The position numbers and the translations under genes were made by a program. This document shows, one piece after another, positions 1,492-6,205 of a DNA stretch of 39,082 bases. The stretch comes from Kiritimatiellia bacterium (lineage in GTDB: Bacteria > Verrucomicrobiota > Kiritimatiellia > SLAD01). Each line of letters begins with the position of its first letter. Within the stretch, counting starts at the first letter, position 1. A model generated the notes under the pieces. The model made no database searches, was not told the origin of the DNA, and saw nothing but the letters and a program-made list of their open reading frames with translations. The stretch is taken from NCBI GenBank assembly GCA_007126515.1, contig SLBD01000045.1, positions 1 to 39,082 on the forward strand, given 5' to 3'.

Positions 1492-1986
1492 TTATTCACC
1501 GGGAAAAATAACGGCGTCGATGACATGAATGACCCCGTTACTGGCCTCGATGTCGGTCGCGATAACTGATGCATTATCGACCATCACACCTTCATCGCTC
1601 ACACTGATCGTGATTGATTGTCCCTGCACAGTTTCAGCGGAAGATAGCTCAACCACATCGGCGGCCATCACTTTACCTGCGATCACATGATAGGTGAGAA
1701 TAGCTTGTAGCATTGCTTTGTTCTCGGGCATAAGGAGCGTCTCTACGGTTCCCGCCGGCAACTGGCTAAACGCTTCGTCAGTCGGCGCAAAAACCGTGAA
1801 GGGTCCCTCACCACGCAATACATCGACTAAATCGGCGGCTTGTACGGCGGCTACTAAAGTAGTAAACGACTCCGCCGCAATCGCGACATCTACAATGTCT
1901 TTCTGAGCTTCGTCTGACTGGTCATACCCGAAGGCGGTACTATTGGTAATGGCTGCAATGGCAAGGATGGTCATGAACTTTTTCAT
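1492..1986 (-). CDS. Secreted fasciclin (FAS1) domain protein
   Basis: N-terminal signal peptide ([20 protein letters not shown]), then FAS1 motifs ([56 protein letters not shown]). Confidence 0.93.
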
Positions 1987-2316: not shown

Positions 2317-2358
2317 TTGTTTTGCCTTGTGTGGCCGATTGCCTTGTTCTGTGCCGGT

Positions 2359-2497
2359 TTCCACTCAATGGAAGAAAAAATTGTGGGTTTTCCATTCAAT
2401 GGAAACTTTTTCACCGTTTTTTCCACTCAATGGAAAATATTTGTGCCGTTTTTCCATTCAATGGAAACTTTTTGGCGTGATTTTCCATTCAATGGAA
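2359..2497. repeat. Array of five 15-bp palindromes TTCCA(C/T)TCAATGGAA at exact 31-bp spacing
   Basis: Units at 2359-2373, 2390-2404, 2421-2435, 2452-2466, 2483-2497. All start-to-start distances are 31 bp, so all four spacers are 16 bp. Confidence 0.97.
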
Positions 2498-2682
2498 AGG
2501 GCTCGGCGCGGACAGAGGTGAGGGGCTGTTGTAATCGGAAAGGGGGGGGCAGGTTCCGCAGGGGTGCCCCATTATGTCTTGCGATTCAAAGTCACTGCCT
2601 GATACCGTCCGCTGTGCTGTGGTGGTACGGGATGAAAGAGGTCTGTTGTTTCACCCATCATAGAAGTGAAGACGTTGAGCCG

Positions 2683-5175
2683 ATGAAAATTAAAAGAGAA
2701 TATACGTGGGTCTGGGCAGGGTTTATCCTGCTGGCGTTGCTGGTGTTTCGGGAGGTGTTGCTGCCGGGCAATGCGCTGTTTACGACCGATGATAATCTGG
2801 GTGATCTGATGGCCCGTAAACAACAGTTGCCCTGGGGCTGGTGGCGGGGATGGAACGATAGCGCCTTGCTGGGGTTCGCATCCCCCTTATTCCTGAATGG
2901 TACCAATCTATTGCTTTGGCTGTTCCCTGCAACGACGTTCAACAACTGGATCAATGCGTTTGATCTGGTGGTTGGTTCGGGCTTTCTTTTTCTGTTCTTG
3001 CGCCGTCGCGGTTTGAACGGCTGGGCTGCAGGGTTGGGTTCGTTGGCGGCCTATTGGCTGGCGAGTAATTTTACGCTTACCTATGCTGGACACATTGGTA
3101 AGTTCGGCGTGCTGCTCTGGGTGCCGATCTATTTGTGTCTGGTGGATGAGGCCGCGAAGCGGCGGTCGCTTGCGTGGAGCCTACTGGCGGGCGCGGCGCT
3201 GGGCGCCATGTTTTTGGAGCAGGCGGACGTGGCCTTCTTTTTTGCGTTGGCTCTGGGGCCCTATGCGCTATTGGCGTGGTTCCGAAATCAGGGTCGTGAT
3301 TGGCTGGGTGGCGTGAAATGGATTGCGCCCTTGTTGGTGATGACGTTGATGATTTCTGCGCATCCGTTGCTGAGTGGGTATCAGACTGCGGTTGAAGATG
3401 TGGCGGCCGTGCAATCGGAGGACACGCAAGCGCAATGGGAATTCATTACTCAATGGAGTTGGCCGCCCGGAGAGACCTTAGACTTTATTGCTCCCGGTTA
3501 TTTTGGCTGGCGCAGTAATGATCCAACCGGATTCTACGTGGGCAAGATGGGGAGATCCGCTGGTTGGGAGGAGGCGGGGCAGGGCTTTGCTAATTTTAAA
3601 TTGGAAAATCAATATCTGGGCGCAATCCCGTTAACCTTTGCCTTGTTGGCCGCCTTCTTGGCTGTGCGCTTTCGAGTGGATGCGAAGGCCCGGCTGGATG
3701 TCTGGTTTTGGACGATTGTGATGGCGCTGGCGCTCGTGTTGTCGTTTGGTAAGTATTTCCCTCTCTATCGCCTTTTCTATCAGCTACCGATTGTCTCATC
3801 GATTCGGAATCCGAACAAATTCCTGCAGCTGTTTCAATTGGCGTTGGGGATTTGTGCGGCCTATGGATTCCAGTTCTATTGGGACAAAGCCAAAGCGACC
3901 GGTCAACGGTCTTTGACGGTTGCTGGAGCCTTGCCCGTATTGGCGCCTGTGGCGGTGGTGGGATTGGGACTGCTGCTATGGGGCATTGGAACGCTGTCTG
4001 CGCGCGAGACACTGATCCACTATTTCCTCGATACGTGGGGACCGCTGACTGCGCAAATGGGGTGGAACCACGAGTGGGCGGTGGCGCTGGCCGACAATCG
4101 CATCTGGTCGCTCCTCCACGGGGGAATTATGGCCTTAATGGCCGCACTCTTCCTCTATGTATTGGCCACACAAGATCGGTGGTCACCCCGCCTCTCGCAT
4201 TCCGCTGCCGCGGTTCTGCTGGGGCTGGTGGTGTTTGATGTCTTCTTCTTGGCTCGCCATTATGTGACAACCTTCCAGCCGGGCTCGATGCGGGATAACG
4301 AAGTGATTCGGATCCTGCAGTCGGCTCCAGATCAGCGGGTGGCGCTGACAACGCGGGCTGGATTCTACAATGAATGGCTGTCGATACAATTTCCATACCA
4401 CGGAGTGGCCTCGATTGAGGTGGCGCAAATGCCGCGTATGCCGCAGCGATACCAGACCTATTTGCAACGGGTGGGCGGACATAGCGTGCGGCATTGGCAG
4501 TTGGGCGCTGTGCAATATGTGCTGGGCCCCGCGCAAGTCTGGGCGGAAATCTCGAATCACCCGGAATTCCGCCGCCGCTTCAATTTGGTCTACGCATATA
4601 ATGTGGAGCGGGGAACAGGGCGAGTGCTGCCTGCGACTGAGGATCGGCCGGGCGAGCATGTGGTGATTGAACATACGGGGCCGCGCCAGCGCTATGCCTT
4701 GGTGCCACGATGGCGCGAAGTTGGAGATGAGGAGGCCTTGACGCGACTGGTTGCGGCTGATTTTGAACCGCTTCGCGAGGTGTTGATTGCCTCGGGCCAG
4801 GATCTGTCTGCCTTGCCGGAGTTGTCGGGCACGGAGAATGGCGGGCGTGTGGATCGGCGGGAGCGTCGCCCCGGATATGTGCGATTGCGCGTGGCTGCGG
4901 AGCAACCATCGATTCTGCGGATGGCTGACAAATTTGATCCGCATTGGCAGGCGGAATTGAATGGTAACCCAGTGCCTCTCTGGCGGATGGACTATATTGC
5001 CAAGGGGCTGTATGTCCCCTCCGGCATGCACGAGGTGGTCCTGACGTATCGTCCTCCGCAATTCACGTTTTGGCTGCAACTCGTGGGTATGTTGTTAGCA
5101 GCTGTAGTCGGGGGGTATTTGGCCTTCAAGCGATTCCAGTGCCGGCATGCGGGCGGAGACCAGCATGTCGATTGA
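2683..5175 (+). CDS. Large multi-pass membrane protein, YfhO-like (830 aa from the ATG at 2683)
   Basis: Many TM helices, then a C-terminal soluble region with the WxAxxNGxxxPLxxxxxxxxGLYVPxGxHxVxLxYRP pattern typical of YfhO-like proteins. The ORF-track extension upstream of 2683 runs through the repeat array and is probably not coding. Confidence 0.7.
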   Translation: MKIKREYTWVWAGFILLALLVFREVLLPGNALFTTDDNLGDLMARKQQLPWGWWRGWNDSALLGFASPLFLNGTNLLLWLFPATTFNNWINAFDLVVGSGFLFLFLRRRGLNGWAAGLGSLAAYWLASNFTLTYAGHIGKFGVLLWVPIYLCLVDEAAKRRSLAWSLLAGAALGAMFLEQADVAFFFALALGPYALLAWFRNQGRDWLGGVKWIAPLLVMTLMISAHPLLSGYQTAVEDVAAVQSEDTQAQWEFITQWSWPPGETLDFIAPGYFGWRSNDPTGFYVGKMGRSAGWEEAGQGFANFKLENQYLGAIPLTFALLAAFLAVRFRVDAKARLDVWFWTIVMALALVLSFGKYFPLYRLFYQLPIVSSIRNPNKFLQLFQLALGICAAYGFQFYWDKAKATGQRSLTVAGALPVLAPVAVVGLGLLLWGIGTLSARETLIHYFLDTWGPLTAQMGWNHEWAVALADNRIWSLLHGGIMALMAALFLYVLATQDRWSPRLSHSAAAVLLGLVVFDVFFLARHYVTTFQPGSMRDNEVIRILQSAPDQRVALTTRAGFYNEWLSIQFPYHGVASIEVAQMPRMPQRYQTYLQRVGGHSVRHWQLGAVQYVLGPAQVWAEISNHPEFRRRFNLVYAYNVERGTGRVLPATEDRPGEHVVIEHTGPRQRYALVPRWREVGDEEALTRLVAADFEPLREVLIASGQDLSALPELSGTENGGRVDRRERRPGYVRLRVAAEQPSILRMADKFDPHWQAELNGNPVPLWRMDYIAKGLYVPSGMHEVVLTYRPPQFTFWLQLVGMLLAAVVGGYLAFKRFQCRHAGGDQHVD

Positions 5176-6205
5176 TGCGAATACGCAATTGCCCGAATTA
5201 AGTGTGGTGATTCCTACCGTGGGGCGGGAGACGCTGATTCCGACTGTGAAATCTCTCTTGGCTGCGGACGGGGCTGATCGCATGGAGGTGATTGTTGCCG
5301 GAGCGGTTGGGGACGGTCCAGTTGGCGCCGAGTTGAGGGAACTTTGCGCCGCTCATTCTGCAATCCGGCATTTGCCTGTGCAGTTCGAAAAAGGTGACTC
5401 GAGCGAGAAAAAGAACGCGGGTTGGCGAGCTGCGAGTGCCGATTATGTGGCGTTTTTGGACGATGATGTGGAAGTGGCATCGGATTGGCCGGTGCGGGTG
5501 TTGGAGGCGTTTGCGCAGCCGGGCACGACCTACATCAGCGGTCCGGGTTTGGTCCCGCCCCGCGTTGATTTATTCGCCAGGCTGGCTGGAATTGTTTTGG
5601 CTTCTCCGGCCACGGGGTATGTTGCGTGGCGGTATCGACATGGGGCATCCGCATTGGTCCCGGTAAAGTGGTCGAAGATCATTGGCTGCAATATGGCTTT
5701 TCGGAGGTTGCTCTTGGAGGAAATGAATGGGTTCGATCCTGGTTTCTGGCCTGGCGAGGAAATGATTGCGGCGTACCAAGCAGAACAGCGGGGGCACCAA
5801 CTGAAATTCTATTCGCCCGCCTGGGTCTACCATTATCCGCGGCAGTCACTCGTCCGCTTTTGCCGCCAGATTATTGGATATGGTTCGACCCGAATTCGCC
5901 TCTTGCGGGCGGGCGTTGAATTTGAGCCGACCACGTTGATTCCAGCGGCAGGCGTATTCGCTTTGGTGATGGGCCTGATCGGCGCTTGTTTTTCCCGCGT
6001 GCTCGCCGTTGGCTTGCTGGGGGCTATGGCGTTGTACGCGCTGGCGGCTTTGGGCATTGGCATCTGGATGGCGCTGGAATCACGTCAGAGCCGCGATCTG
6101 TTGTGTGCGCTCCTTGTCCCCGTTGTGCATGTTTGCTATGGGATTGCTGGTTGGTGGGAGATCATCCGCCCCAATCATGATTTCAGCATTAGCCGTCGAG
6201 AGTAG
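5165..6205 (+). CDS. Family 2 glycosyltransferase
   Basis: LSVVIPTVGRETLIPTVKSLL, VAFLDDDVEV (DDD metal site), GCNMAFRR, C-terminal TM helices. Start could be 5147 or 5165. Confidence 0.88.
   Translation: MSIDANTQLPELSVVIPTVGRETLIPTVKSLLAADGADRMEVIVAGAVGDGPVGAELRELCAAHSAIRHLPVQFEKGDSSEKKNAGWRAASADYVAFLDDDVEVASDWPVRVLEAFAQPGTTYISGPGLVPPRVDLFARLAGIVLASPATGYVAWRYRHGASALVPVKWSKIIGCNMAFRRLLLEEMNGFDPGFWPGEEMIAAYQAEQRGHQLKFYSPAWVYHYPRQSLVRFCRQIIGYGSTRIRLLRAGVEFEPTTLIPAAGVFALVMGLIGACFSRVLAVGLLGAMALYALAALGIGIWMALESRQSRDLLCALLVPVVHVCYGIAGWWEIIRPNHDFSISRRE

Follow-up and report, generated by a model that had tools for sequence, protein, structure and literature searches.

Dispersed intergenic palindromes are an already known kind of element. 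The parS sites bound by ParB, the Noc sites and the matS sites bound by MatP are dispersed palindromes occupied by dimers that can spread or bridge, and the ComK boxes of Bacillus subtilis are paired AT-rich dyads for which separations of one, two or three helical turns are tolerated. REP sequences are reported to follow coding regions, chiefly in the gaps between unidirectional or convergent genes (PMC3733652). In neisserial genomes, the dRS3 element, ATTCCC(N8)GGGAAT, is present in hundreds of copies within intergenic mosaic arrays and serves as a target for the integrase of a filamentous phage (PMC3898611). The array analyzed here lies in a stretch of 39,082 nucleotides (referred to as the window), which is number 19 of the 244 contigs that make up a 2.47-Mb draft genome. 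It belongs to a family of intergenic palindromes whose neighbouring sites stand whole helical turns apart, and this whole-turn spacing is the strongest result of the analysis.

The array in the window and its copies in the same genome

An earlier note on this DNA had described five copies of TTCCA(C/T)TCAATGGAA starting exactly 31 bp apart, with perfect 7-bp arms around a central C in the T form (units 2, 4 and 5) and with units 1 and 3 in the C form. The coordinates proved exact, and the two forms are distributed as described (Table 1). When the window was scanned on either strand for further matches with up to three mismatches, nothing was recovered beyond the same five palindromes read in reverse. 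Both a 31-bp and a 62-bp period were detected by TRF in this array. The 62-bp period, which the note had taken for a higher-order unit, received the top score here, but it is no general rule, because the alternation of C and T forms is missing from most other arrays.

Table 1. Components of the phased array in the window
Feature	Coordinates	Strand	Identified by
Entire array with 5 palindromes, repeated every 31 bp, and 4 spacers of 16 bp each	2359..2497		unit match, TRF, mismatch scan
Unit 1, TTCCACTCAATGGAA, C form	2359..2373	+	pattern match
Spacer 1, GAAAAAATTGTGGGTT, first-spacer type (GAAAAA...), common to most other arrays of this genome	2374..2389	+	spacer comparison
Unit 2, TTCCATTCAATGGAA, T form	2390..2404	+	pattern match
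Spacer 2, ACTTTTTCACCGTTTT, second-spacer type, with the same sequence as spacer 2 in the L055 array	2405..2420	+	spacer comparison
Unit 3, TTCCACTCAATGGAA, C form	2421..2435	+	pattern match
Spacer 3, AATATTTGTGCCGTTT	2436..2451	+	spacer comparison
Unit 4, TTCCATTCAATGGAA, T form	2452..2466	+	pattern match
Spacer 4, ACTTTTTGGCGTGATT	2467..2482	+	spacer comparison
Unit 5, TTCCATTCAATGGAA, T form	2483..2497	+	pattern match

Between the end of the array and the ATG (position 2683) of a gene for an 830-aa product lie 185 bp. The reading frame of this gene (2317-5175, plus strand) is open upstream through the entire array to a TTG at 2317. Because the start of the orthologues coincides, or nearly so, with the ATG at 2683, the upstream extension across the array is probably not translated. 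The name "YfhO-like" given to the 830-aa product is unconfirmed, since a Pfam search with it returned no match at E ≤ 0.001. Upstream of this gene and divergent to it is a gene for a fasciclin-domain protein (1492-1986, minus strand). For the glycosyltransferase encoded at 5147-6205, the best named relative (67% identity) comes from a Kiritimatiellae metagenome-assembled genome from sediment.

The 15-mer TTCCAYTCAATGGAA is present in 122 copies in this genome, 66 on the plus and 56 on the minus strand, while the pattern read backwards, used as the control, has 0 copies; this rules out a chance origin. The copies sit in about 36 intergenic arrays, and the 36 places retrieved with their flanks contained 138 units in arrays of 1 to 7. 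The gap between adjacent perfect sites was exactly 31 bp in 90 of 98 cases. Of the 138 sites, 3 fell inside called genes, even though called coding sequence made up about 86% of the retrieved DNA (genes were called by a simple hexamer-based script, and gene starts are therefore approximate), in agreement with the view that the repeat is non-coding. The note had also suggested that the repeat could belong to a family scattered over related genomes. Scanning this genome and its relatives for other phased arrays strongly bore this out, with many arrays and regular spacing found elsewhere.

Whole-turn spacing and distribution across the class

In comparisons between genomes, arrays were counted in the general form TTCCA-N5-TGGAA, in which the five central bases are free. 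With spacings of 29-33 bp, arrays were found in 32 of 58 relatives, and the reversed control gave 0 in every case. In a phylum sample of 390 genomes, most of which are fragmented drafts, the arrays were restricted to the class: 48 of about 130 Kiritimatiellae genomes carried them against 1 of about 260 genomes sampled elsewhere in the phylum (both totals tallied from the list of sampled genomes; array counts refer to the matches listed). The single genome from outside the class, G095, belongs to another class of the phylum and has 3 pairs. Array pairs numbered up to about 750 per genome and about 80 in each of G002 and G003; within one genus their number ranged from 0 to 56 (g42) or from 2 to 69 (g20), and genus g9 has genomes with 0 and with 18 pairs.

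The five central bases differ by lineage. They are YTCAA in the genome of the window, ATCRT in its sister species G002, mostly AGGCT or AGCCT in G016, and YRNYR in much of family f26. The 15-mer of the window has 0 copies in other genomes of the same genus; between species of one genus the centre has been switched in all copies. The extended site, TTTTCCA-N5-TGGAAAA with a G+C-rich mid-spacer, is common to three lineages.

Neighbouring sites are spaced by whole turns, at 21-22, 30-32, 41-44, 51-53 or 62-65 bp. When any spacing from 17 to 47 bp was permitted in G016, 748 of 751 pairs fell at 29-33 bp, and this exact spacing is kept despite spacers that are unrelated in sequence. Among the matches listed (plus-strand rows, counted by hand), 77 of 78 direct pairs were 21-22 bp apart when 17-28 bp was permitted; with 34-58 bp permitted, the nine direct gaps among the matches listed, again counted by hand, were 41, 42, 42, 44, 51, 51, 51, 52 and 53 bp. 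Gaps of 62-65 and 93 bp were also present, and the exceptions seen were 28 and 85 bp. Some lineages have settled on other multiples. In G017 of family f8, whose core is partly identical to that of the window, the gap was 21 bp in 14 of 14 cases (L217-L225), with 42 pairs at 17-28 bp against 1 at 29-33 bp genome-wide, and in G038 gaps of 31 bp occur together with gaps of 41/42 bp. Arrays of family f26 (G128 and G141; L161, L162, L201, L185 and L186) have 30-31-bp gaps inside and are capped by 22-bp gaps, as in 22, 30, 31, 31, 31, 22 and in 22, 31, 31, 30, 22. The presence of such caps at both ends gives these arrays a higher-order symmetry. The mean phase of the pooled gaps was about 0 at 10.5 bp per turn. 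Thus, the sites share one face of the helix, as had been proposed from the window, and lineages differ from one another by whole turns.

The array geometry is also kept in compact phage genomes. The array pattern was matched by 18 IMG/VR contigs, several with low-complexity or coding matches and others with real arrays. Those in L124, L125, L136, L132 and L140 contain 2 to 11 phased units. L125 and L136 carry genes for terminase, portal, maturation protease and major head proteins; those of L140 include genes for a Mu-type transposase and a DNA transposition protein. An 11-unit array precedes the terminase region in L124 (3034-3400; gaps of 31, 22, 32, 31, 31, 31, 31, 42, 31 and 31 bp), and a 9-unit array does so in the related L125 (2786-3060; gaps of 31, 31, 22, 31, 31, 31, 31 and 22 bp). 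Some right arms in the phages read CGGAA instead of TGGAA. A search for similar DNA among annotated plasmids and phages gave no match.

Copying of the arrays and their placement between genes

Within the genome of the window, mean identity was 96% for the cores versus 49% for the spacers, and almost no decayed units were found one period beyond the array ends. The spacers nevertheless carry a record of descent: 152 spacer pairs were identical at 13 or more of 16 positions, versus an expectation of 18.8 under column permutation. Across the arrays, the first spacer is mostly GAAAAA(A)... and the second ACTTTTT..., and this order of types indicates that whole arrays descend from one another. It also gives the arrays a polarity, which is not tied to gene direction (in tandem regions, 8 arrays had the same and 5 the opposite direction). 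The array positions are not shared with the sister species; of 18 arrays in G002, 0 had flanking orthologues of an array in the genome of the window. Turnover of positions, together with shared spacers, shows that the arrays are copied. Target-site duplications flanking the arrays were not found above the level in shuffled controls, and comparison of G128 with G141 gave no clean empty site, as one G128:C1 flank aligns to array-free G141 DNA and the other flank is unaligned.

The main rival to the explanation that we prefer (see below) is that the arrays are selfish or mobile intergenic repeats, non-autonomous and copied in trans by a putative recombinase or transposase that recognises phased palindromes, so that spacing and cores would be kept for the needs of the enzyme and not for use by the host. 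The relatedness and constant order of the spacers, the turnover of positions, the wide variation in copy number inside one genus and the carriage of arrays by phages all speak for such an origin, and an enzyme needing phased sites would account for the spacing rule equally well. However, flanking target-site duplications are lacking, the spacers of G016 are unrelated though their spacing is exact, and a parasite should leave some dead copies, whereas almost none were seen. Nor do Y1/RAYT transposases (PF01797) co-vary with the arrays across the 58 genomes: PF01797 had no match in the array-rich G024, G053 and G042, and had 21 matches in G027 and 11 in G012, both array-free. This excludes transposases of the RAYT type as the common cause, though a different enzyme may be responsible. 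A scan of the fetched loci for HUH enzyme motifs found none. We consider a mobile origin of this kind unlikely on balance, although it is the alternative to be taken most seriously.

A second alternative is that a global transcription regulator uses the palindromes as operators to control the promoters of flanking genes. Palindromic, dimer-type sites in phased clusters, one of them 185 bp ahead of a gene start in the window, are what might be expected of operators. However, among intergenic regions of at least 100 bp in the sampled array-bearing genomes, arrays occupied 45 of 256 tandem (18%), 23 of 128 divergent (18%) and 14 of 71 convergent regions (20%; p = 0.92), meaning that arrays are as frequent in convergent regions, where there is no promoter to regulate, as in divergent ones. 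Within tandem regions there was no significant bias toward the stop or the start, and no enrichment was seen upstream of gene starts. The neighbours are also without a functional theme. The 58 array-flanking proteins of the genome matched 146 Pfam families, none of which was matched by more than 4 proteins, and the array neighbours are unrelated, mostly housekeeping genes, including those for DnaJ, PNPase, GlmS, PheS, threonine synthase, ClpB and fumarate reductase. Between sister species the arrays are conserved with no gene. Equal occupancy, unrelated neighbours and unshared positions leave the promoter-operator reading unsupported, here or in general, and we regard it as improbable.

The same evidence bears on the specific idea, raised in the note, that the array belongs to the membrane-protein/glycosyltransferase cluster downstream. 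The orthologues of the YfhO-like gene that occur within the genus and family (seven clear ones with 51-60% identity and a weaker one with 39%) had no array within about 1.5 kb, and a relation to this cluster is rejected. A regulator of the cluster is likewise argued against by the absent promoter preference and the unrelated neighbours.

Hairpins acting at the RNA level, as terminators or mRNA stabilisers, are a very improbable explanation. A transcript of the window array is predicted to fold better than shuffled sequences (z = -4.28), and T runs follow the palindrome in some spacers. However, spacing by whole turns of DNA is meaningless for RNA, A runs and not T runs come after the palindromes of G016, divergent regions are occupied as often as others, the number of terminator-like sites (a G+C-rich stem followed by a T run) between positions 1900 and 2800 was 0, and an Rfam search gave no family at or near threshold. 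Least probable of all is a neutral tandem repeat with its period as a relic of slippage duplication, which would fit the spacer types common to arrays in one genome but is refuted by the spacing data (exact phasing despite unrelated spacers in G016; 21, 31 or 41/42 bp, all whole turns, in different lineages) and is at odds with cores far better conserved than spacers.

A putative dimeric protein and comparison with known systems

We lean, with some reserve, towards the explanation that the arrays are helically phased platforms for a putative class-specific dimeric DNA-binding protein that has a chromosome-wide role, the platforms having spread by copying. Palindromic cores, whole-turn spacing and conservation confined to the cores point to a dimeric protein whose copies bind next to each other along a single DNA face, although the protein, its cooperativity and its function are all things that we infer from the arrays. 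Each TTTTCCA-N5-TGGAAAA palindrome would be the site for one sequence-specific dimer. With 2 to about 11 sites at whole-turn spacings, bound dimers would be placed on one helix face and be able to touch, and such contact might lead to cooperative, filament-like or looping binding. The arrays are spread over the chromosome regardless of the function of neighbouring genes. As they lie between genes whatever the orientation or function of these genes, and show no preference for promoters, a chromosome-wide role, such as nucleoid architecture, insulation, or road-blocking between adjacent genes, is most likely, ahead of one at particular promoters. A nucleoid- or segregation-type role, as had been suggested for the array in the window, is possible. 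The arrays would spread and turn over as copied blocks, selection would then keep the core sites intact as the spacers diverge, and the central five bases presumably track the specificity of the protein as it varies by lineage. Several observations count against this platform explanation: no regulator was found to recur beside arrays across lineages, and no gene family did so in more than two of them; a range from 0 to more than 50 pairs inside genus g42 is odd for an essential architectural system; and array positions differ between sister species.

We would put forward more tentatively that Kiritimatiellae possess a novel chromosome-organising or insulating system, in which a putative dimer occupies hundreds of one-face arrays with sites two, three, four or more turns apart, protein and site centre evolve together from species to species, and the same arrays are carried by the transposable phages of the hosts. 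The whole-turn rule predicts that protein molecules bound along one DNA face are in contact with their neighbours, and the switch of the site centre could show how a protein and hundreds of its sites change specificity together. If the arrays are architectural or insulating, they would be genome organisers of a new type, in a class that has been little studied; if they are selfish, they would represent a parasite with an unusual geometric requirement.

No description of such repeats in Kiritimatiellae was found in the literature, in a search whose coverage of subscription journals was thin. The arrays resemble REP/BIME elements in that both are high-copy intergenic palindromes with composite arrays and lineage-specific sequence families (PMC3733652, PMC2817692). 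They differ in having a short symmetrical core of 15-19 bp and whole-turn spacing, and, unlike REPs, they neither avoid divergent regions nor prefer the 3' side of genes, as the equal occupancies above demonstrate. The GTAG/CGTC tag, a feature of REPs, is absent beside the palindromes, which have only T-run or A-run flanks in the genome of the window, G002 and G016. The nearest system in form is dRS3, with a variable centre between fixed inverted arms and a phage connection in both cases. However, dRS3 has other arms and another centre length and alternates with RS repeats of 30-160 bp, whereas the present arrays combine a TTCCA-N5-TGGAA core with fixed spacers of 6-16 bp, and they do not fall within the dRS3/NIME type. 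No rule of helical phasing is known to us for dRS3. ComK boxes are the sites of a promoter-bound activator, with two boxes only and another sequence. We are aware of no other family that keeps its sites whole turns apart throughout a bacterial class, with lineages at two, three or four turns. Finally, parS, Noc and matS sites are similarly palindromic, dispersed over the chromosome and independent of the function of neighbouring genes. They are mostly single, fewer, conserved in sequence and regionally placed, whereas the arrays described here are helically phased and turn over in both their positions and their central bases.
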